Part shown: piece after piece, positions 1 to 17,568 of the stretch
How positions within the stretch are numbered: the stretch's first letter is position 1
Layout of the letters: each line of letters starts with the position of its first letter
Assembly (NCBI RefSeq): GCF_002934265.1
Contig: NZ_PTIX01000001.1
Coordinates: forward strand, 124,001 to 188,000
Source: Actinokineospora auranticolor
Lineage (GTDB): Bacteria > Actinomycetota > Actinomycetes > Mycobacteriales > Pseudonocardiaceae
Direction of reading: 5' to 3'
DNA: 64,000 bases
Translations under genes and position numbers: made by a program
Notes under the pieces: model-generated
The model's input: the letters and a program-made list of their open reading frames with translations, nothing else
What the model was told of the DNA's origin: nothing
Database searches by the model: none

Positions 1-1
1 C

Positions 2-1765
2 GAGTCCGAGAAATCCACAGTGGACTCGGTGGCGCCCGCGGCGGGCATCCCGGCGCCGCGGCACGCCGAGTCCGGCGCCATCGCGGACCTGCTGGAGGAA
101 CTCAACGGCCTGGTCGGGCTCGACGGCGTCAAACGCGAGGTCGAGACCCTCGTCCGGCTGCACCAGATGGCCGAACGCCGGGCCGCCGCCGGGCTGCCGT
201 CGCCCCCGCTCGGCCGCCACCTCGTGTTCACCGGCTCCCCGGGCACGGGCAAGACCACCATCGCCCGCCTCTACGGCCGGATCCTCACCGCGCTCGGCGT
301 CCTGCGCACCGGTCAGCTCGTCGAGTGCGCCCGTGCCGACCTGGTCGCGGCCGTTGTCGGTGGCACCGCGCTCAAGACCCAGGAGAAGTTCGACGAGGCG
401 CTTGGCGGAGTCCTGTTCGTCGACGAGGCGTACACGCTCTCCGCGGGCTCCGGCGGCAGCGGTCCCGACTTCGGCAGGGAGGCCATCGACACGCTGGTGA
501 AGCTGATGGAGGACCACCGCGACGACGTCGTGGTCATCGTCGCCGGGTACACCAACGACATGCGCGCCTTCCTCGCCGCCAACCCCGGGCTCTCGTCGCG
601 ATTCACCCGCACCATCGAGTTCGCCGACTACTCCGCGCCCGAGCTGGTGACCATTGTGGAGGGACTGTGCCGGGCGCACGACTACCGGCTGGAGTTCGAG
701 ACCCGCGCCGCCGTGCACGCCTACTTCACCAAGCTCCCGCGCGACGCGTCCTTCGGCAACGGCCGCACCGCGCGGAAGGTGTTCGAGGAGATGGTCGGTC
801 GCCAGGCGTACCGGCTCGCCGAAGACGAGGAAGCCTCACCTGTGGCCCTGACCCGACTGCTGCCCGACGACCTCGGTCCGCTGCCGGGCAGCGGGGTCGG
901 CGCGGGCGCGGGCCGCGTCGACGAGGAACAGGTGGAGCGGTTGCTGTCCGAGCTGCGCGGACTGGTCGGACTCGATGACGTCAAACAGGAAGTGGCCAGC
1001 ATGGTCGACCTGCTGGCGTCGGCCCGCAGGCGGCAGGAGGCCGGTCTCCCGGTACCGTCGCTGAGTCGTCACCTGATCTTCGCCGGGCCGCCGGGTACCG
1101 GTAAGACGACCGTCGCCCGGCTGTACGGGTCGGTGCTCGCGGCGATGGGGGTGCTGGCGCAGGGACAGGTCGTCGAGGTCAGTCGCGCGGACCTGGTGGG
1201 GGAGTACATCGGGCACACGGCCAAGCGCACCACCGAGTCCTTCGACCGCGCCCGCGGCGGCGTGCTGTTCATCGACGAGGCCTACACGCTCTCCAGCCGC
1301 CCCGGCGGCGGTCAGGACTTCGGGCGGGAGGCCATCGACACGCTCGTGAAGCTCATGGAGGACCACCGCGACGAGGTCGTGGTCATCGCGGCGGGGTACG
1401 CCGACGAGATGACCGGGTTCCTCGCCGCGAACCCCGGTCTGTCGTCGCGGTTCTCCCACCACGTGCACTTCGCCAACTACACGGCCGATGAACTGGTCAC
1501 CATCGTCAGCCAGCACGCCACCAAGATCGGTTACGAGTGCGCGGCCGCCACCGTGGTGTCGCTGCGCGAGCACTTCGCCACCATCCCCCGGCACGCGTCC
1601 TTCGGCAACGGCCGCTACGCCCGCCAGGTGCTCGACGAAGCCGTCACCCGGCACGCCCGCCGCACCCGGTCCATCCCCACGCCGACGATCGCAGACCTGT
1701 GCGTTCTGTTGCCTGAGGACATCCCCGCGGCGAGTCCCTCGGGCAAACCACCCGGACAGCGGTGA
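2..1765 (+). CDS. Tandem CbbX/SpoVK-type AAA+ ATPase (5' end may lie outside the window)
   Basis: Two AAA+ modules about 283 residues apart. Counting from the GTG at position 20, module 1 has Walker A GSPGTGKTT at residues 72-80 and Walker B VLFVDEA near 131; module 2 has Walker A GPPGTGKTT near 355 and Walker B VLFIDEA near 415. Both carry the family's LSSRF and FGNGR (arginine sensor) segments. The family remodels protein complexes (CbbX acts on Rubisco; EccA is an ESX relative). The frame stays open from base 2 to the GTG, so an upstream N-terminal part may exist outside the window. The Hsp70-like gene follows after 121 nt on the same strand, suggesting joint work on a protein assembly. 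The AAA+ assignment is firm; the substrate is unknown. Confidence 0.85.
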   Translation, partial: ESEKSTVDSVAPAAGIPAPRHAESGAIADLLEELNGLVGLDGVKREVETLVRLHQMAERRAAAGLPSPPLGRHLVFTGSPGTGKTTIARLYGRILTALGVLRTGQLVECARADLVAAVVGGTALKTQEKFDEALGGVLFVDEAYTLSAGSGGSGPDFGREAIDTLVKLMEDHRDDVVVIVAGYTNDMRAFLAANPGLSSRFTRTIEFADYSAPELVTIVEGLCRAHDYRLEFETRAAVHAYFTKLPRDASFGNGRTARKVFEEMVGRQAYRLAEDEEASPVALTRLLPDDLGPLPGSGVGAGAGRVDEEQVERLLSELRGLVGLDDVKQEVASMVDLLASARRRQEAGLPVPSLSRHLIFAGPPGTGKTTVARLYGSVLAAMGVLAQGQVVEVSRADLVGEYIGHTAKRTTESFDRARGGVLFIDEAYTLSSRPGGGQDFGREAIDTLVKLMEDHRDEVVVIAAGYADEMTGFLAANPGLSSRFSHHVHFANYTADELVTIVSQHATKIGYECAAATVVSLREHFATIPRHASFGNGRYARQVLDEAVTRHARRTRSIPTPTIADLCVLLPEDIPAASPSGKPPGQR

Positions 1766-1886
1766 ACGCTTGATGTGACTATCGGGCAACGGTCCTGCTC
1801 CAGGGGGAGGAGCTGGTCCACACCAGTCGGAGATCCGGATAGAGTGCCGTACCGGAGCGGGCGGCAACTCCTTTCGGGAGAACTTC

Positions 1887-4010
<2,124 letters not shown>

Positions 4011-4032
4011 GGGGTAGGGATATCCCTACCCC
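4011..4032. promoter_or_regulatory. 22-bp perfect palindrome, candidate response-regulator operator
   Basis: A perfect dyad of two 11-bp arms, half-site GGGGTAGGGAT, with no loop. It begins right after the Hsp70-like gene's stop and lies 54 bp before the kinase-like/response-regulator pair. Without a loop or T-run it looks like a protein-binding site rather than a terminator. The nearby NarL-type regulator (4569-5231) is the obvious candidate ligand; that link is inference. Confidence 0.55.
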
Positions 4033-4086
4033 GGTCGGGGGTTGGCCCCGTTGCCCGAGCCGGTCGCGCGCGAGCACGATTAAGCG

Positions 4087-4578
4087 ATGAACGGCATCAG
4101 GCGGGACGTCCGGCTCCGCCCGGTCGACCCGGGCACCTGCGCGCTGCGCCGGGGCCTGGAGCGCGACCTCAACGACGGGCCCGCGCAGCGGGTGGCCGCG
4201 CTGTCGGTGGAACTGGGCCTGTTCGCCGCCGACCTCACCGACCCGGCGCTCGGCGCGCGCGTCGCCGGGTTGCAGGCCGCGCTGGCGGTCGTGCTGGCCG
4301 AACTGCGCGAGATCGGCGGCGCGCTGTACCCGCCGGTGCTGGCCAGCGACGGGTTCGAGCCCGCGCTGCGCGCCGTGGCCGAGCGGCACGGGCTGGCCAT
4401 CGCGGTGCGCGGCGAGCAGGTGGCGCACCTCGACGCCGACACCGCGGACGCGACCTGCCTCGCGGTCGCCGACCACCTCAGGTCCGTGCCACCGGAGACC
4501 AAAGTGGACGTTCAGGTGCGGGCGGCGGCGGGCGGCGTGCGGGTCGACGTGACGGAGGAGCGGGTGCGGTGCGGGTAG
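4087..4578 (+). CDS. Truncated histidine kinase-like protein lacking the phospho-acceptor His
   Basis: 163 residues matching the dimerisation/phospho-acceptor (HisKA_3) part of NarX/UhpB-type kinases. Where the family has ERDLHDG, this protein reads ERDLNDG, so the phosphorylated His is Asn29. The rest of the helical hairpin is recognisable (LREIGGALYPPVL). The ATP-binding domain is only a remnant: N-box and G-boxes are missing and the chain ends where the DxGxG motif would begin. It should not autophosphorylate. Its 3' end overlaps the response regulator start by 10 nt, so the two are translationally coupled. A phosphatase, sequestration or scaffold role toward that regulator is inference. 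Confidence 0.75.
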   Translation: MNGIRRDVRLRPVDPGTCALRRGLERDLNDGPAQRVAALSVELGLFAADLTDPALGARVAGLQAALAVVLAELREIGGALYPPVLASDGFEPALRAVAERHGLAIAVRGEQVAHLDADTADATCLAVADHLRSVPPETKVDVQVRAAAGGVRVDVTEERVRCG

Positions 4579-5231
4579 CCATCGCCGACGACGGGGCGCT
4601 GTTCCGCGAGGGGCTCGTCATGCTGCTGCGCGCCGCCGGGCACGAGGTGGTCGCCTCGGTCGCCGACGGCGACACCCTGGTCGAGCGGGTCAGCGCCGAC
4701 CCGGTCGACGCGGTCGTGCTCGACATCCGGATGCCGCCCGAACCCGACGGCGGCCTCGCCACCGCCGAACGCCTGCGGGCGCTGCGCCCGGAAACCGGGA
4801 TCCTGCTGCTGTCGCACTACGCCGAGACGCACTACCTGATGCGGGTGCTGGAGATCGGCACCGAGGGCATCGGTTACCGGCTCAAGGAACGCGTCGCGGG
4901 CGTCCAGGTGCTCGACGACACGCTCACCCGGATCGCGGGCGGCGAGATCGTCATGGAACCGTCGCTGGCCAAGCGGTTGGTGCAGCGGCCCGCCGGTGGT
5001 GGCGGCCCGGTCGGCACGCTGACCGAGCGCGAGCACGACGTGCTGCGGCTGATGGCCGAGGGGCGCACCAACGCCGCCATCGCCAAGGAACTGTTCGTCT
5101 CGGCCAAGGCCGTGGAGAAGCACGTCGCGGCCATCTTCGGCAAACTCGACCTGCCCGGCGACCAGACCGTGCACCACCGCCGGGTCCTCGCGGTGCTGGC
5201 CTACCTGCGGGCCGGCCGGGTCGACGGGTAG
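4569..5231 (+). CDS. NarL/LuxR-family response regulator
   Basis: 220 residues. The receiver domain is complete: acidic pair D7-D8, phospho-acceptor D52 (VVLDIRM), switch Ser82 and conserved K106. The C-terminal LuxR-type helix-turn-helix (about 153-198) begins LTEREHDVLRLMAEGRTN. The GTG start lies inside the preceding gene. The intact receiver contrasts with the two adjacent kinase-like proteins, neither of which has the phospho-donor His, so phosphate must come from another kinase or small phosphodonors, or the regulator works unphosphorylated. The palindrome at 4011-4032 is a plausible autoregulatory site. Confidence 0.9.
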   Translation: MRVAIADDGALFREGLVMLLRAAGHEVVASVADGDTLVERVSADPVDAVVLDIRMPPEPDGGLATAERLRALRPETGILLLSHYAETHYLMRVLEIGTEGIGYRLKERVAGVQVLDDTLTRIAGGEIVMEPSLAKRLVQRPAGGGGPVGTLTEREHDVLRLMAEGRTNAAIAKELFVSAKAVEKHVAAIFGKLDLPGDQTVHHRRVLAVLAYLRAGRVDG

Positions 5232-5238
5232 CGGCGGG

Positions 5239-6840
5239 GTGGCGCGAGGGCCGGTGGCCGCGCTGGTCCGTGAACTCGCCGAGAGCACGGGACTCGGCGC
5301 CGTCTACTACACCGAGGGGCCGGACGGTCTGTCCGTCGCCGCCGCGTGGCCGGAGCACCCTTCCGGCCCGGTACCCGGTGTCGCGGTACAGGTTCCCGGC
5401 GGTGGGGTGCTCGTGCTCGTCGCGGTCTCCCTGGGGAGCGCGGACATGGACCGCCTGCGTCGGTTCGCGGATCGCATCGCGCTGGCCGCGGCGGGGGAGC
5501 GGCTGCGCGCCGAACAGGACCGGCAGCGGTCGCGGACCCGCGCGCTGGAACGGGAAGTGCTGACGGCCCGGGAACGCCTCGTCCACGTCCGGGACCTCGA
5601 GCGGCGCCGCATCGCGGGCGCGCTCACCGGCGTGATCGGCCGCGACTTCGCCCAGCTGCGCTCGCGGCTGGAGGCGGGAGAACTGGCGGAGTTCCGGACG
5701 ACGCTCGACGACGTGATCGACCGGTTCCGCACCGTCGTGCGGGGCGTGCACCCGGCGATGCTGCCCGAGCGCGGACCGCTGGCGGCACTGGAGGAACTGG
5801 CCGCGACACTACCGCGCCCGGTCCGGTTCGCAGGCGACCTCGGGCGCCGAGCGGGCTGGGAGGTCGAGTCCGGCCTCTACCACGCGGCGGCGGCCGTACT
5901 GGCACTCCTGGCCGAAAACGCTTGCGTCCAGCCGGTCCAGGTCTCCTGTTCACGCGAGGACGGGCTCCTGTCACTGACCTTTGTGGACCCTTCATCCGCG
6001 GTGGTGGACCTGCGATCGGCACTCCGCGACGACGCCGCCCGCCTGTCAGCCTTCGGCGGAACCCTGGAAACCTGGGACGAAGGCGGAACCGCGACCATAC
6101 GAGTCCGCCTGCCGGAACGTTTCGACGTCGCCGCAATAGAGCCCGTGGGCCTACTCGCCCGGGTACGTGAAGTCGTGGCCGCCGGTGTGCGCGCGTCGGT
6201 GGCAGGATGGTCGGAGCTCGCCGAGCTTCTGGACCGACCGCCGGTGGTGGCGTTGGTGGGCCCGGGAAGCACCGCCGCGGTCGAATCACTGACCGGCCAC
6301 GAAGTACTACGGCACCTGACCCTGACCGACACCCCGGCGGAAGCCGACGTCGTGCTCGCCTTGGACTCCACTATGGACTTGGTTCACCCGACCGTGAGCC
6401 ACGTAGACGACCCGTCACCCGCCCTACCGGACTTGCTGTACCGGCGAGTGGTCGACCGAGCCGACCTACTAGCAGCCCGCGGGGTGTTGACGGCGGCACG
6501 CCAAACCCCCCAACCGGAGCCGCTGGCCCGCCTGCTGGACCAGGTACTGGCAGACGCACACGAGCTGGTGGAACTGGACCTGGTCGACGCCCTGGAATCC
6601 GGCACCACCGCACTACACGCCCTGACCACCGAAGCCCTGCGACTCCTGGGCGCCTCCGGCCGCGCCCCCCACACCCGCCTGGGCCTACCCCGCCACGCCC
6701 CACCAGCAGACATCCGCACCGCCGCGGCCACAGCGACCACGGCGTGGCGCACCCACGCGGGCAACCCGGCGCTGAGCACCCGCGCACACGAGGCGTGTTT
6801 GACAGTGGTACGAACCTGCGAAGGCTTGGCGATGGGTTAG
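5239..6840 (+). CDS. Second degenerate histidine kinase-like protein with a GTPase-like C-terminal region
   Basis: 533 residues, GTG start 7 nt after the response regulator. The N-terminal ~115 residues look GAF-like and end in a coiled coil. Next comes a HisKA_3 segment in which LERRRIAGALTGV replaces the family's ERRRIARDLHDG, so the His position is Thr130. A shrunken ATPase-like domain (about 170-285) ends GGTATIRVRLP but lacks a clear N-box and DxGxG. The last ~230 residues contain VVALVGPGSTAAVESL (about 334), which resembles a P-loop with the GK(S/T) lost, followed by a helical region reminiscent of dynamin-like proteins. That resemblance is weak. Codon choice becomes less GC3-biased in the last third. 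Probably a scaffold or sensor partner of the regulator; function unknown. Confidence 0.65.
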   Translation: MARGPVAALVRELAESTGLGAVYYTEGPDGLSVAAAWPEHPSGPVPGVAVQVPGGGVLVLVAVSLGSADMDRLRRFADRIALAAAGERLRAEQDRQRSRTRALEREVLTARERLVHVRDLERRRIAGALTGVIGRDFAQLRSRLEAGELAEFRTTLDDVIDRFRTVVRGVHPAMLPERGPLAALEELAATLPRPVRFAGDLGRRAGWEVESGLYHAAAAVLALLAENACVQPVQVSCSREDGLLSLTFVDPSSAVVDLRSALRDDAARLSAFGGTLETWDEGGTATIRVRLPERFDVAAIEPVGLLARVREVVAAGVRASVAGWSELAELLDRPPVVALVGPGSTAAVESLTGHEVLRHLTLTDTPAEADVVLALDSTMDLVHPTVSHVDDPSPALPDLLYRRVVDRADLLAARGVLTAARQTPQPEPLARLLDQVLADAHELVELDLVDALESGTTALHALTTEALRLLGASGRAPHTRLGLPRHAPPADIRTAAATATTAWRTHAGNPALSTRAHEACLTVVRTCEGLAMG

Positions 6841-14725: not shown

Positions 14726-15652
14726 CTAGCCCGGGACGAAGCCCTCGACCGTGGTGCCCGTGCCGAGGGCGGAGTCCACGCGGAGGGTGCCGCCGAGCGG
14801 GGTGAGGCGCGTGGTCAGGTTCGCCAGGCCCGTGCCGGTCGCGGTCGGTTCGAAGCCGGGACCGTTGTCGGACACGGAAAAGCTCAACCCGGCCGCCGAG
14901 CCCCGCAACCGGACGTCGATCGACGCGCCCACCGCGTGCTTGTGCGCGTTGCCCACGGCCTCCAGGCACACGAAGTACACCGCCGTCTCCACCGGCGCCG
15001 GGTAGCGCGGCAGGTCCGCCGCCAAGTCCAGCCGGACATCGGTGTGCGTGCCGAGTTCGGCGCCCAGCGCCGCGGCCAGGCCGTCCGCCAGCGGCTCCGG
15101 CAGCACGCCCGCCGCCGTCCGCACCAGGGTCGCCTCGGCCGCGTCGAGCCGGGGCCCCAGGTCGGCCGACGCGGGGTCGTGCTCGGCCAGCGCGACCGCC
15201 AAGCGCAGTGCGACGAGGTGGTGCTGGGTGCCGTCGTGCAGGTCCCGCTCGACGCGGCGCCGCTCGGTGTCCATCTCCGCCGCGGCGCGCCAGCGGGTGT
15301 CGGCGAGTTCGGCCGCCGCCTCGGTACCCGCGCGCCGCAGTTCGTCGACCGACAGGGCCAGCCGCACGAGGTCCGGCACCGGTCCCAGCGCGTCCGCCAC
15401 CGCGCCCAGCCGCCGCGCCGGTCGCACCCGCAGTTCCGCGTGCTCGTCGAGGCGGGCCCGGCTCCACGCGCCGGTGCTCTCCGCGCCCCAGCGGTGGGTC
15501 ACGCCGTCGACGACCAGCTCGCACTCGGCCGCGCCCAGCGCCGCGCCGATCGCCTCGGCGACCAACGCGGGCCGGGGGGCCCGGTCGGCGACCAGTCGCG
15601 CCACGGCGGCGAGCACCGCGTCCGCCCGCTCCTCGCGATCTCGTTGCCGCAC
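14726..15652 (-). CDS. Orphan soluble NarX/DesK-type sensor histidine kinase
   Basis: 308 residues with no transmembrane segment. An N-terminal ~110-residue sensor region is followed by a HisKA_3 helix with the phospho-acceptor His139 in ERDLHDGTQHH. The ATP-binding domain is intact: N-box EAVGNAHKHA, G1 SDNGPGF and C-terminal GTGTTVEG. No response regulator gene is adjacent. It starts 16 nt after the Ser/Thr kinase stop, so the two kinases form one operon. It is the nearest complete kinase of this class to the orphaned regulator at 4569; a functional link is speculation. Confidence 0.88.
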   Translation of the reverse strand: MRQRDREERADAVLAAVARLVADRAPRPALVAEAIGAALGAAECELVVDGVTHRWGAESTGAWSRARLDEHAELRVRPARRLGAVADALGPVPDLVRLALSVDELRRAGTEAAAELADTRWRAAAEMDTERRRVERDLHDGTQHHLVALRLAVALAEHDPASADLGPRLDAAEATLVRTAAGVLPEPLADGLAAALGAELGTHTDVRLDLAADLPRYPAPVETAVYFVCLEAVGNAHKHAVGASIDVRLRGSAAGLSFSVSDNGPGFEPTATGTGLANLTTRLTPLGGTLRVDSALGTGTTVEGFVPG

Positions 15653-15668
15653 GGTCCGAACGGTACCG

Positions 15669-17177
15669 CTAGACGCCCCGGCTGCTCACGACCGTGACCT
15701 GGTCGATCTTCCATTGACCGTCCAGGTTCACCACGACGTAACGGTGCTGCTCCTGGATCGCGCGGCCGTCGGTGAAGACGTAGTTGACCGTCGCGTTCAC
15801 CACCGTGCCCGCGTCCGCGACCACGTTCGACGTCTTGACCGAGGTCACCGACGCCCAGAACCTCCGGTAGCTGTCCATGCCCTTGGCCGGGTAGCCCTGG
15901 AACCTCGGGGAAAGCCTGCTCCACGCCTGCTCCACGCCGCCGGGCATCATGGCGTAGTAGTCCGCGACCGCGGCCTGCTTGGCCTGCGGGCTGTCGTCCG
16001 CGGGCCGGTTGACCGGCGGCGCGGCGGGCGGTGCCGTGGTGACCGGCGGGTTCGCCGTGGGCACGGGCTGCTCGGTCGTCGCCTGCGGTTGGGTCGACTG
16101 CGCCGTCGTCGGCGCGACCGTCTCCACGGTCGTCTCCACCACCGTGGAGGGCGCCGCGCTCGGCGTGACCGTCCCGGCGTCCTGCTCGCCGCTGCCGCGC
16201 AGCGCGACCGTGAACAGCACGCCCGCCACGGCGATCAGCAGGGCGAGGGTCGCGACGAGGTAGGCGGTGCGCGGACGCTGCCGCTCCGGCTCGACGGACG
16301 GCAGGTCCGCCGTCGCGGCGTCGACCGGCGCCCCGGTCGGGCCCGCTGCGAGTTCGTCGCGGACCTCCGCCATCGTCGGCCGCGCCTTCGGGTCCGAGGC
16401 GAGCATCCGCTCCAGCAGCGGGGTCAGCACACCGGCGCGGGTCGGCGGGTTGTGCTCACCGGTGGACACCCGGTACAGCAACGCGATCGGGTTGTCGTCG
16501 CGCCCGAACGGCGGCACGCCCTCGGTCGCGGAGTAGAGGGTGGCACCGAGGGAGTACACGTCCGACGCGAACGTCACGGGTTCGCCGCGGGCGATCTCCG
16601 GCGCCAGGTACGCGGGGGTGCCGCGCACGGTGTTGGTGACGGTCCCGGTGAGCGTGCCCGAGACGTCGATGGCGAGCCGGGAGATCCCGAAGTCGGTGAT
16701 CTTGACCTGTTTGCCGCCGACTCCCAGGAGCACGTTGCCCGGCTTGACGTCGCGGTGCACCACACCCGCCTCGTGCGCGGCGGCCAAGCCCTCCGCCACC
16801 GCGGCGCCGATGCGGACGACCTCTGCCGGGTCGAGCGGCCCCTGCTCGGCCAGCACCTCCGCCAGCGTGGTGGAGGGCAGGTACTCCATGACGAGGTACG
16901 GCGCGTCGTCGGAATCGCCGTCCTCGGCGACGTCGAAGACGGTGATCGCGTGCGGGTGCTGCAACTTGGCGGCGATGCGTCCTTCCCGGACCGCCAGCTC
17001 GCGCACCCGATCGGCCTCGGGGCCGGGTGGGGTGCGCAGCCGCTTGAGCGCGACGGTCCGGTGCAGGCGCTCGTCGTAGGCCTCCCAGACCTCGCCCGCC
17101 CCACCGCTGCCGAGCCGGGCGACCAAGCGGTAGCGGCCGGACACCAGGTCCCGCTCGGAAGCCCGTTGCTCTGTCAC
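15669..17177 (-). CDS. PASTA-less membrane Ser/Thr protein kinase with extracytoplasmic NTF2-like domain
   Basis: 502 residues from GTG 17177. The kinase domain is complete: Gly loop LGSGGAGEVW (22-31), Lys45, HRDVKPGN with D143, DFG at 162-164 and LAPE at 191-194. One transmembrane helix (about 304-326) is followed by a Thr/Pro-rich stalk and a ~105-residue C-terminal domain (WSRLSPRFQGYPAKG onward, ending with a WKIDQVTV strand) resembling NTF2/SnoaL-like sensor domains of actinobacterial kinases. The sensor would face outside. A 46-residue secreted peptide gene lies 41 nt upstream and a histidine kinase gene 16 nt downstream. Confidence 0.9.
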   Translation of the reverse strand: MTEQRASERDLVSGRYRLVARLGSGGAGEVWEAYDERLHRTVALKRLRTPPGPEADRVRELAVREGRIAAKLQHPHAITVFDVAEDGDSDDAPYLVMEYLPSTTLAEVLAEQGPLDPAEVVRIGAAVAEGLAAAHEAGVVHRDVKPGNVLLGVGGKQVKITDFGISRLAIDVSGTLTGTVTNTVRGTPAYLAPEIARGEPVTFASDVYSLGATLYSATEGVPPFGRDDNPIALLYRVSTGEHNPPTRAGVLTPLLERMLASDPKARPTMAEVRDELAAGPTGAPVDAATADLPSVEPERQRPRTAYLVATLALLIAVAGVLFTVALRGSGEQDAGTVTPSAAPSTVVETTVETVAPTTAQSTQPQATTEQPVPTANPPVTTAPPAAPPVNRPADDSPQAKQAAVADYYAMMPGGVEQAWSRLSPRFQGYPAKGMDSYRRFWASVTSVKTSNVVADAGTVVNATVNYVFTDGRAIQEQHRYVVVNLDGQWKIDQVTVVSSRGV

Positions 17178-17218
17178 ATCGAGGTAACTTACCCGAACGG
17201 GCGATGTCTGAAACGCAA

Positions 17219-17359
17219 TCAGTTGTGGGTCATGCCCGGCGTGTTGTTGTGCGTCATGCCGGGGTCGGTCCCGGCGGAGGCCGGGGAGGCCAGTACCGCG
17301 CCGGTGACCAGAGCGGCGGCTGCGAGCAGGGCGGCGATGATCGAACGCTTGGTGCGCAT
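17219..17359 (-). CDS. 46-residue secreted peptide precursor with duplicated PGMTHN
   Basis: An ATG with a strong ribosome site (GGAGAA, 4-5 nt spacing) begins MRTKRSIIAALLAAAALVTG, a textbook Sec signal peptide with positive n-region, Ala/Leu core and cleavage site ASPASA. Cleavage would leave 17 residues, GTDPGMTHNNTPGMTHN, with PGMTHN twice. The two Met-Thr-His units could bind metal, or the peptide could be a signal. The gene ends 41 nt before the Ser/Thr kinase, whose C-terminal domain is predicted outside, so co-transcription is likely. No family is recognised. It could be the stub of a decayed longer gene, but the clean SD-signal-stop arrangement argues against that. Confidence 0.65.
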   Translation of the reverse strand: MRTKRSIIAALLAAAALVTGAVLASPASAGTDPGMTHNNTPGMTHN

Positions 17360-17568
17360 GGGTTCTCCGTCGATCGGCCGCGCGGGCCGGTGCGGCCCGG
17401 GCGGGCTCGTGCACGATGGTCGGGCGGTGCCGATCGTGGCGGGGGCCGACGACGGGGCGGGGAACGTACAGTGAACGCCTGGCCAAACCCAGTGGAGGAA
17501 TCGCTCACCCACAGTGGTGAACCGGTCAACTCCGCTGCGCCATTGGGCTCATTCTTGCTGTACACCCA

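Follow-up and report, generated by a model that had tools for sequence, protein, structure and literature searches.

Several described systems resemble parts of the locus studied here. The ChrS form is a catalytically dead kinase relative that acts on an intact kinase; its catalytic domain is damaged, and it heterodimerises. HisKA_3 kinases of the DesK-DesR and DosS type work with NarL-type regulators. Dynamin-like proteins, among them IniA (PMC6715688), are known from the mycobacterial iniBAC setting and from other actinobacteria, and Hsp70 and GTPase-like parts occur together in actinobacteria in GTPase-centred conflict systems (Kaur et al., 2020; PMC7159879). In one theme of these systems GrpE and DnaJ-fused proteins accompany Hsp70, and the part of that paper drawn on here names no histidine kinase among the vWA-associated effectors. 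We analysed a stretch of 64,000 nucleotides (the window; G000:C1:124001-188000) from an 8.4 Mb draft genome of the genus Actinokineospora (Pseudonocardiaceae). It encodes an Hsp70 protein, a response regulator (RR) and three kinase-like proteins, HK0, HK1 and HK2. With a probability of about 0.6, we conclude that these would form a multi-subunit two-component system comprising an intact kinase (HK0), a pair of pseudokinase subunits and an Hsp70 receptor that spans the membrane; the system would regulate itself, control an extracytoplasmic function (ECF) sigma factor and be linked to type VII secretion.

As with the ChrS form, kinase relatives with damaged catalytic domains are found here with an intact kinase, but the genetic arrangement fixes two distinct pseudokinases and an Hsp70 alongside a single kinase and a single regulator, and the heterodimer is a prediction. 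Unlike the kinases of the DesK-DesR and DosS type, HK2 has no acceptor His and no N-box, and it ends in a dynamin-derived tail, dynC. This tail recalls the dynamin-like proteins, as far as the part of PMC6715688 used here describes them, and in two relatives (L062 and L063) a GTPase domain with an intact P-loop is fused to HK2; in the window, by contrast, the GTPase motif is lost, and the output would be a regulator. No dynamin pair was noticed in the module, although no profile search aimed at one was made. The present module also differs from the Hsp70 conflict systems, as the portion of PMC7159879 used here presents them, in being built on a two-component pair. A literature search, which had most subscription journals outside its reach, found no title or abstract opening describing the module. 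It is possible, at rather less than even odds, that a previously unrecognised signalling architecture operates here, in which an Hsp70 receptor with an outer domain that changes from lineage to lineage controls one active and two dead kinases, with a dynamin-derived tail on either partner and with an ECF sigma factor and type VII secretion reached through one dedicated palindrome.

The preliminary description of this DNA reported five co-directional genes, for an AAA+ protein, an Hsp70-propeller protein, a pseudokinase (HK1, P0003), RR and a second, kinase-GTPase-like protein (HK2, P0005), and saw no active kinase among them. All five open reading frames (ORFs) are present, and profile scans place four of them in families above cut-off, P0005 being the one without such a match. 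The cluster described is genuine but cut short on either side: its first gene is part of a secretion locus, and the working kinase is found beyond its last. The conserved core consists of the Hsp70 transmembrane sensor, HK1, RR, HK2 and HK0 (Table 1).

Table 1. Positions of the module genes, the palindrome and associated genes (window coordinates unless a locus is given)
Feature	Position	Strand	Remarks
C-terminal two AAA+ domains of a 1007-aa beta-helix/AAA/AAA protein	1..1765	+	Gene begins upstream of window
Hsp70 ATPase domain, one transmembrane-like segment and YVTN beta-propeller	1887..4010	+	Inverted relative to nearly all relatives
Perfect 18-bp palindrome, GGTAGGGATATCCCTACC	4013..4030		56 bp before HK1 start codon; proposed RR operator
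HK1: HisKA_3 (DHp) domain, His to Asn, and about half a catalytic domain, N-box and ATP lid missing	4087..4578	+	From Pfam, alignment and model
RR: NarL/FixJ-type response regulator, receiver residues intact	4569..5231	+	Overlaps HK1 gene by 10 nt
HK2: small alpha/beta N-terminus (GAF-like by eye), His-less DHp, degenerate catalytic domain, degenerate dynamin-like region and dynC helical tail	5239..6840	+	533 aa
HK0: intact HisKA_3 sensor kinase (LHDGTQHH, EAVGNAHKHA, SDNGPGF)	14726..15652	-	Orthologue of kinase adjoining HK2 in relatives
ECF sigma-factor gene	L039:6469-7032		Sigma70_r2 and r4; adjoins mycosin and eccC genes

P0005 was searched against 150 genomes of the family, and 32 neighbourhoods were then fetched and mapped. 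A scan with an HK2 alignment found 106 relatives, the best 80 of which are the named loci counted below. Because they were chosen by their HK2 peptides and include near-duplicates (e.g. L091/L092 and L152/L156), they are not independent, and several come from the same genomes as loci in the L040-L070 set. L071 was excluded from the HK2 counts as a canonical kinase. The thresholds for HK0 (110 bits), HK2 and the beta-helix-AAA gene (900 bits) were fixed after the scores had been seen; the names GAF, argG, EccC and mycosin were read from sequence or context where unscanned. A phylum-wide HK2 profile search proved unspecific, gathering ordinary HisKA_3-type kinases, and was not used for distribution. 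HK1 had no match in the plasmid collection searched.

The module genes recur together in dozens of genomes, implying that their grouping is more than chance. RR was found in 75 of the 80 named loci, Hsp70 in 69, HK1 in 68 and HK0 in 76. These loci come from Actinokineospora, Saccharopolyspora, Saccharothrix, Actinophytocola, Prauserella, Thermocrispum, Pseudonocardia, Gandjariella, Actinomycetospora, Frankia, Actinoplanes/Paractinoplanes, Geodermatophilus and Schumannella, and from metagenome-assembled genomes (MAGs). Across the mapped neighbourhoods the usual order is a divergent Hsp70 gene followed by HK1, RR and HK2: 65 of 69 Hsp70 genes lie upstream and divergent, three downstream on the opposite strand and one upstream on the same strand (L114). 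The window, with its co-directional hsp70, is an exception as L114 is. Because 27 nt before this gene are still shared, at 89% identity, with the stretch before the hsp70 of L089, the window gene seems to have been inverted together with its proximal upstream sequence, the palindrome staying with HK1. The five-gene order first proposed is not the conserved unit.

What the earlier picture lacked is HK0. It matches HisKA_3 and HATPase_c above the Pfam cut-offs, and its His, N-box and G1 (DxGxG) residues are intact in 76/76 relatives, as expected of an active sensor kinase. When this genome was searched with the HK0 of L053, a single clear orthologue emerged (227 bits, 51% identity; the runner-up scored 67 bits). 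It lies about 7.9 kb from HK2, with an argG-like gene and others between, and is convergent with it, as in the 33 loci where HK0 is on the opposite strand. HK0 stands beside the same module genes in 76 of the named loci; three of the other four (L085, L089 and L125) meet contig ends, and L100 (A. pegani) has its orthologue on another contig of genome G116. Among the matches listed for the 150 family genomes, an HK0-type match of at least 110 bits occurs in 35 of the 36 genomes with HK2 (counted where the kinase-like part scores 74 bits or more) and in no other. In 32 of these 35 the two genes share a contig and are at most 10 kb apart; in the other three (G149, G076 and G116) HK0 is on a different contig. 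The exception, G117, also has neither HK1 nor RR at its locus. By crude hydropathy, at least four transmembrane segments are present in 36 of 43 same-strand and 3 of 33 opposite-strand HK0 proteins; that of the window has none. The absence of an active kinase therefore holds only inside positions 2-6840. Nor is either pseudokinase literally replaced by an intact kinase in the relatives, an outcome that the preliminary description had regarded as telling against it; HK0 stands beside both. The partner expected of such a kinase is intact as well: RR matches Response_reg and GerE above the Pfam cut-offs, as a NarL/FixJ-type regulator does, and its acidic pair, D, S and K are present in 74/74. Directly adjoining HK0, at 15669-17486 on the minus strand of the window, is a Ser/Thr protein kinase gene (Pkinase, Pfam).

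HK1 and HK2 are damaged in different ways. HK1 matches HisKA_3 at 27.4 bits (cut-off 24), and its H-box reads LNDG in place of LHDG. In 68 relatives the phospho-acceptor position is H in 57 and N in 11, and the next Asp is kept in 66; His is absent from two clades only, the window's among them, and parsimony on a tree of 69 tips counts 2 losses. An N-box-like motif was found in 0/68, and the structure model stops after about half of the catalytic fold. With its His to Asn change and incomplete ATP-binding domain, the HK1 of the window does not qualify as an active kinase. The same is true of HK2, in which the H-box position reads LTGV, His at the aligned acceptor position is found in 0/79 relatives and an N-box-like motif in 0/80. 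A His one residue past the canonical position is present in 22 of the 80 HK2 proteins (L085-L164) and also, for example, in L065, L066, L068 and L069. That both kinase-like proteins lack the His is correct for the window and for HK2 generally, whereas HK1 elsewhere mostly retains it; the scaffold role once proposed for both is reasonable for HK2, a conserved non-kinase.

The C-terminal half of HK2 is recognisable only through its relatives. Pfam gave nothing above cut-off for P0005, with two chance-level matches (E 0.065 and 0.16); a PDB sequence search with P0005 alone returned nothing useful, and profiles gave only weak DesK matches. A PDB structure search covered residues 89-297, where kinase domains fill the listing and no dynamin entry is among the rows listed. 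The P-loop GxxxxGK[ST] is absent from P0005 (GPGSTAAV), which is not what a dynamin-like GTPase would have. Of 23 dynC-fused ORFs, only those of L062 and L063 have the P-loop, and the L063 protein also matches Dynamin_N and MMR_HSR1 weakly; none was found in the remaining 21. Two of the 30 fused ORFs among the 80 loci fit the P-loop pattern with GALAIGKS, but a similar segment precedes the kinase part of L063, so this is probably not a P-loop. To judge from its relatives, the GTPase-like half (residues 305-533) is probably a degenerate dynamin-like region.

The tail itself, dynC, comprises the C-terminal 137 residues of P0005 and is widespread in family genomes; the only other match in this genome is on a different contig. 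It is carried by HK2 in 30 of the 80 loci, by HK0 in 36 and elsewhere in one, and was undetected in 13; no locus has it on both. A domain that moves between two partners is the usual sign of one complex, and because dynC sits on either protein but never on both, this suggests that HK0 and HK2 form one complex. A dynC-bearing gene in L066 and L069 had been considered as a dynamin, but Pfam gives HisKA_3 and HATPase_c, making it an HK0 with a dynC tail.

The PF00012 match of the Hsp70 protein spans positions 3-373 of 599, covering the chaperone ATPase domain, and its phosphate-loop residues are kept in nearly all of 66 relatives. No substrate-binding domain was matched; the Pfam match is followed by the transmembrane-like segment and the propeller. 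Such a hydrophobic segment lies within 150 residues after the ATPase domain in 52 of 64 proteins tested, the window's included. The outer part varies by lineage: some have a YVTN propeller, the two proteins scanned that have no propeller (L042 and L045) carry an Exop_C galactose-binding-like domain, and certain Frankia and Paractinoplanes proteins end in just a short tail. The combination of a constant ATPase and transmembrane segment with a changing outer domain suggests that the protein is a receptor, in keeping with the membrane-linked sensing system originally envisaged.

The palindrome before HK1 offers a candidate route from RR to other genes. Its layout, GTAGGGA-TA-TCCCTAC, fits the 7-2-7 spacing of NarL-type regulator sites, and we infer that RR is its binder. 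With at most one mismatch, 0.05 such palindromes would be expected in the window. The 16-mer pattern GTAGGGNNNNCCCTAC has one match in this genome, and each of the five further genomes searched carries it in the equivalent intergenic position, G098 having a second match elsewhere. De novo palindromic motif finding in 63 regions recovered the palindrome with a log-likelihood of 482, compared with 31-39 in five shuffled sets (single-letter shuffles, 40 starts against 60 for the real set). Requiring at least 14/18 matches, a site is present in 29 of 62 Hsp70/HK1 intergenic regions, from several genera, and in none of the shuffles; the 80 loci hold 22 further sites outside these regions, where shuffled loci give 0.6, and 13 of the 22 are upstream of an ECF sigma-factor gene. 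At 13/18 or better, a site lies 118-190 bp before the start of the sigma profile match in 14 of 15 strong-match loci, the exception being L097; the weak sigma matches of L126, L146 and L161 (39-102 bits) were excluded. Among five Actinokineospora genomes, allowing three mismatches, a site precedes the orthologous sigma gene in G000, G076, G149 and G043, and G000 and G149 carry further 3-mismatch sites. In this genome the sigma site (L039:7110, two mismatches) falls in the gap that separates the sigma gene from the mycosin-like one and precedes the probable ATG by about 122 bp. The consensus behind the site scores was drawn from the same loci, and the contrast in identity of 0.83 against 0.29/0.45 (30 sites) is biased upward by selection. 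Palindrome-like sites also occur at or before a small Gly/His-rich protein gene in Paractinoplanes (L123:13944-14414 and L146:14103-14432), a possible further target, and, in a Pseudonocardiales MAG (L121:4569), 183 bp before a different gene that is sigma-factor-like by eye (L121:4769-5368).

EccA, the AAA+ protein of type VII secretion, has a TPR-like N-terminal region. The AAA+ gene at the window edge truly starts about 1.26 kb upstream, at G000:C1:122742. Its product exceeds the EccA family cut-off (487 against 467 bits), yet the SpoVK model scores higher (525 against 423), and the residues before its AAA domains match Beta_helix (PF13229) and not the EccA N-terminal domain. The CbbX identity first given to it was dropped, the score being below the cut-off (442 against 459). 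Upstream on the same contig are EccB, EccD and a subtilase read as mycosin (Pfam), and an EccC-like ATPase (by eye); on the strength of these neighbours the AAA+ gene was assigned to a type VII secretion locus, outside the core. A YbaB-like protein, an 830-aa protein and a 3527-aa protein are also encoded there. The last (L007:2138-12721) has an intact ORF; its N-terminus is WXG100-like and it gives two papain-fold matches to Gln_amidase (PF15644), so that it resembles a giant protein exported by the type VII system of a soil actinomycete. The 830-aa protein (L007:13076-15568) has no Pfam match and an ADP-ribosyltransferase-like C-terminus by eye only; its gene accompanies the beta-helix-AAA gene in many loci. 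A defence-system reading was rejected, as PADLOC yielded only generic AAA matches (IetA and similar) and LuxR-type matches.

A beta-helix-AAA orthologue of at least 900 bits is present in 14 of 25 module genomes. Its distance from HK2 is less than 6 kb in 8 of these 14, less than 40 kb in 11 and less than 90 kb in 13, and 2.4 Mb in G011; by our own estimate, random placement would give such closeness in a few per cent of cases. An AAA or EccC gene flanks 17 of the 80 loci, including those of Schumannella (L135) and a Frankia (L153). Because the beta-helix-AAA gene keeps synteny with HK2, type VII secretion is a likely output of the module.

Several observations weigh against this interpretation. 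The 16-mer is not enriched: it has 1, 1, 1, 2, 1 and 1 matches per genome, compared with 1, 0, 2, 3, 0 and 0 for the reversed control. Because the control matches as often, the evidence of the palindrome is its position, not its count. With three mismatches, the 18-mer gives 4, 3, 2, 2 and 2 matches against 0, 0, 2, 2 and 0 in controls. Of the 22 outside sites, 8 precede other genes or none; the next-best site in G098 is not before the sigma gene; and many loci of Pseudonocardia, Actinomycetospora and Frankia have a weak palindrome or none. Eleven of the 25 module genomes have no beta-helix-AAA orthologue at the 900-bit threshold, and the flanking type VII genes are confined to the 17 loci just mentioned. 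HK0 was undetected in 4 of the 80 loci, HK1 in 12, Hsp70 in 11 and RR in 5, some of these owing to contig ends. The low end of the HK0 threshold is not a clean cut, G119, without HK2, reaching 109.3 bits against 110.7 for the weakest HK0 counted. In the window itself, an hsp70 inverted away from the palindrome and an HK0 8 kb off mean that the arrangement has loosened.

Parts, conservation, intact residues, palindrome, co-occurrence, domain swap and synteny can be read from the DNA itself, and they are consistent with the following model. HK0 would be the sole member with the intact motifs to bind ATP and phosphorylate RR. HK1, with its DHp and half catalytic domain, and HK2 would be pseudokinase subunits, predicted to dimerise with HK0 or each other and to set its kinase/phosphatase balance. 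The exchangeable outer domain of the membrane-spanning Hsp70, here a propeller, may sense something in the envelope, and the signal would pass inwards as the kinase complex reads the Hsp70 ATPase state. Phosphorylated RR would then bind the palindrome and control its own operon, the divergent hsp70 in relatives, and the ECF sigma-factor gene, which has a site of this type before it. The predicted output lies in envelope or type VII secretion functions.

Other explanations assign the pseudokinases different roles. Both could be scaffolds in a kinase-free assembly, as the preliminary description proposed, with RR unphosphorylated or fed by a foreign kinase. The lack of His from both proteins in the window, and from HK2 throughout (0/79), would fit this idea; it is highly improbable with HK0 beside the module in 76/80 loci and in the window itself, co-occurring in 35/36 HK2 genomes among the matches listed, and with the phosphorylation residues of RR intact in 74/74. 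We find it scarcely credible that HK1 and HK2 are functionless paralogues decaying beside an ordinary HK0-RR pair: catalytic motifs are indeed lost, HK1 is truncated and the module is incomplete in some loci (e.g. L058), but the frames are open, non-catalytic residues are conserved across genera, gene order is fixed and a domain has been exchanged between HK2 and HK0.

Two further possibilities, each unlikely in our judgement, concern HK1 and the palindrome. DxxxQ is a phosphatase-related motif, and the HK1 of the window has DGPAQ, retaining the Q; in addition, most relatives keep the His (57/68) and nearly all the next Asp (66/68). HK1 might therefore be a phospho-carrier that HK0 phosphorylates in trans, or a phosphatase that drains phosphorylated RR, the Asn form in the window being phosphatase-only. 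Q is found at that position in only 7/68, however, the residue being mostly L (43) or A (14), and the two losses of His on the tree imply that a carrier role is dispensable. The palindrome, for its part, might serve another regulator, the nearby secretion genes being unrelated neighbours. Such a reading can appeal to the predicted status of RR binding, the weak sites of many loci, pattern counts per genome no higher than the reversed control and the modest share of loci (17/80) flanked by secretion genes. It must also explain why the site tracks the module position in 6/6 genomes and the sigma gene in 14/15 loci, and why beta-helix-AAA/HK2 synteny is far above random (13/14 within 90 kb) and extends to Schumannella (L135).

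The multi-subunit two-component system that we favour would provide a testable case in which an Hsp70 acts as a signal receptor and not in protein folding, and in which two pseudokinases are tied genetically to a single intact kinase. Since dynC has been exchanged between HK2 and HK0, a physical complex of the two is open to direct test. Beyond the module itself, the path from RR through the palindrome to an ECF sigma factor is a candidate control route for type VII secretion in non-mycobacterial actinobacteria.

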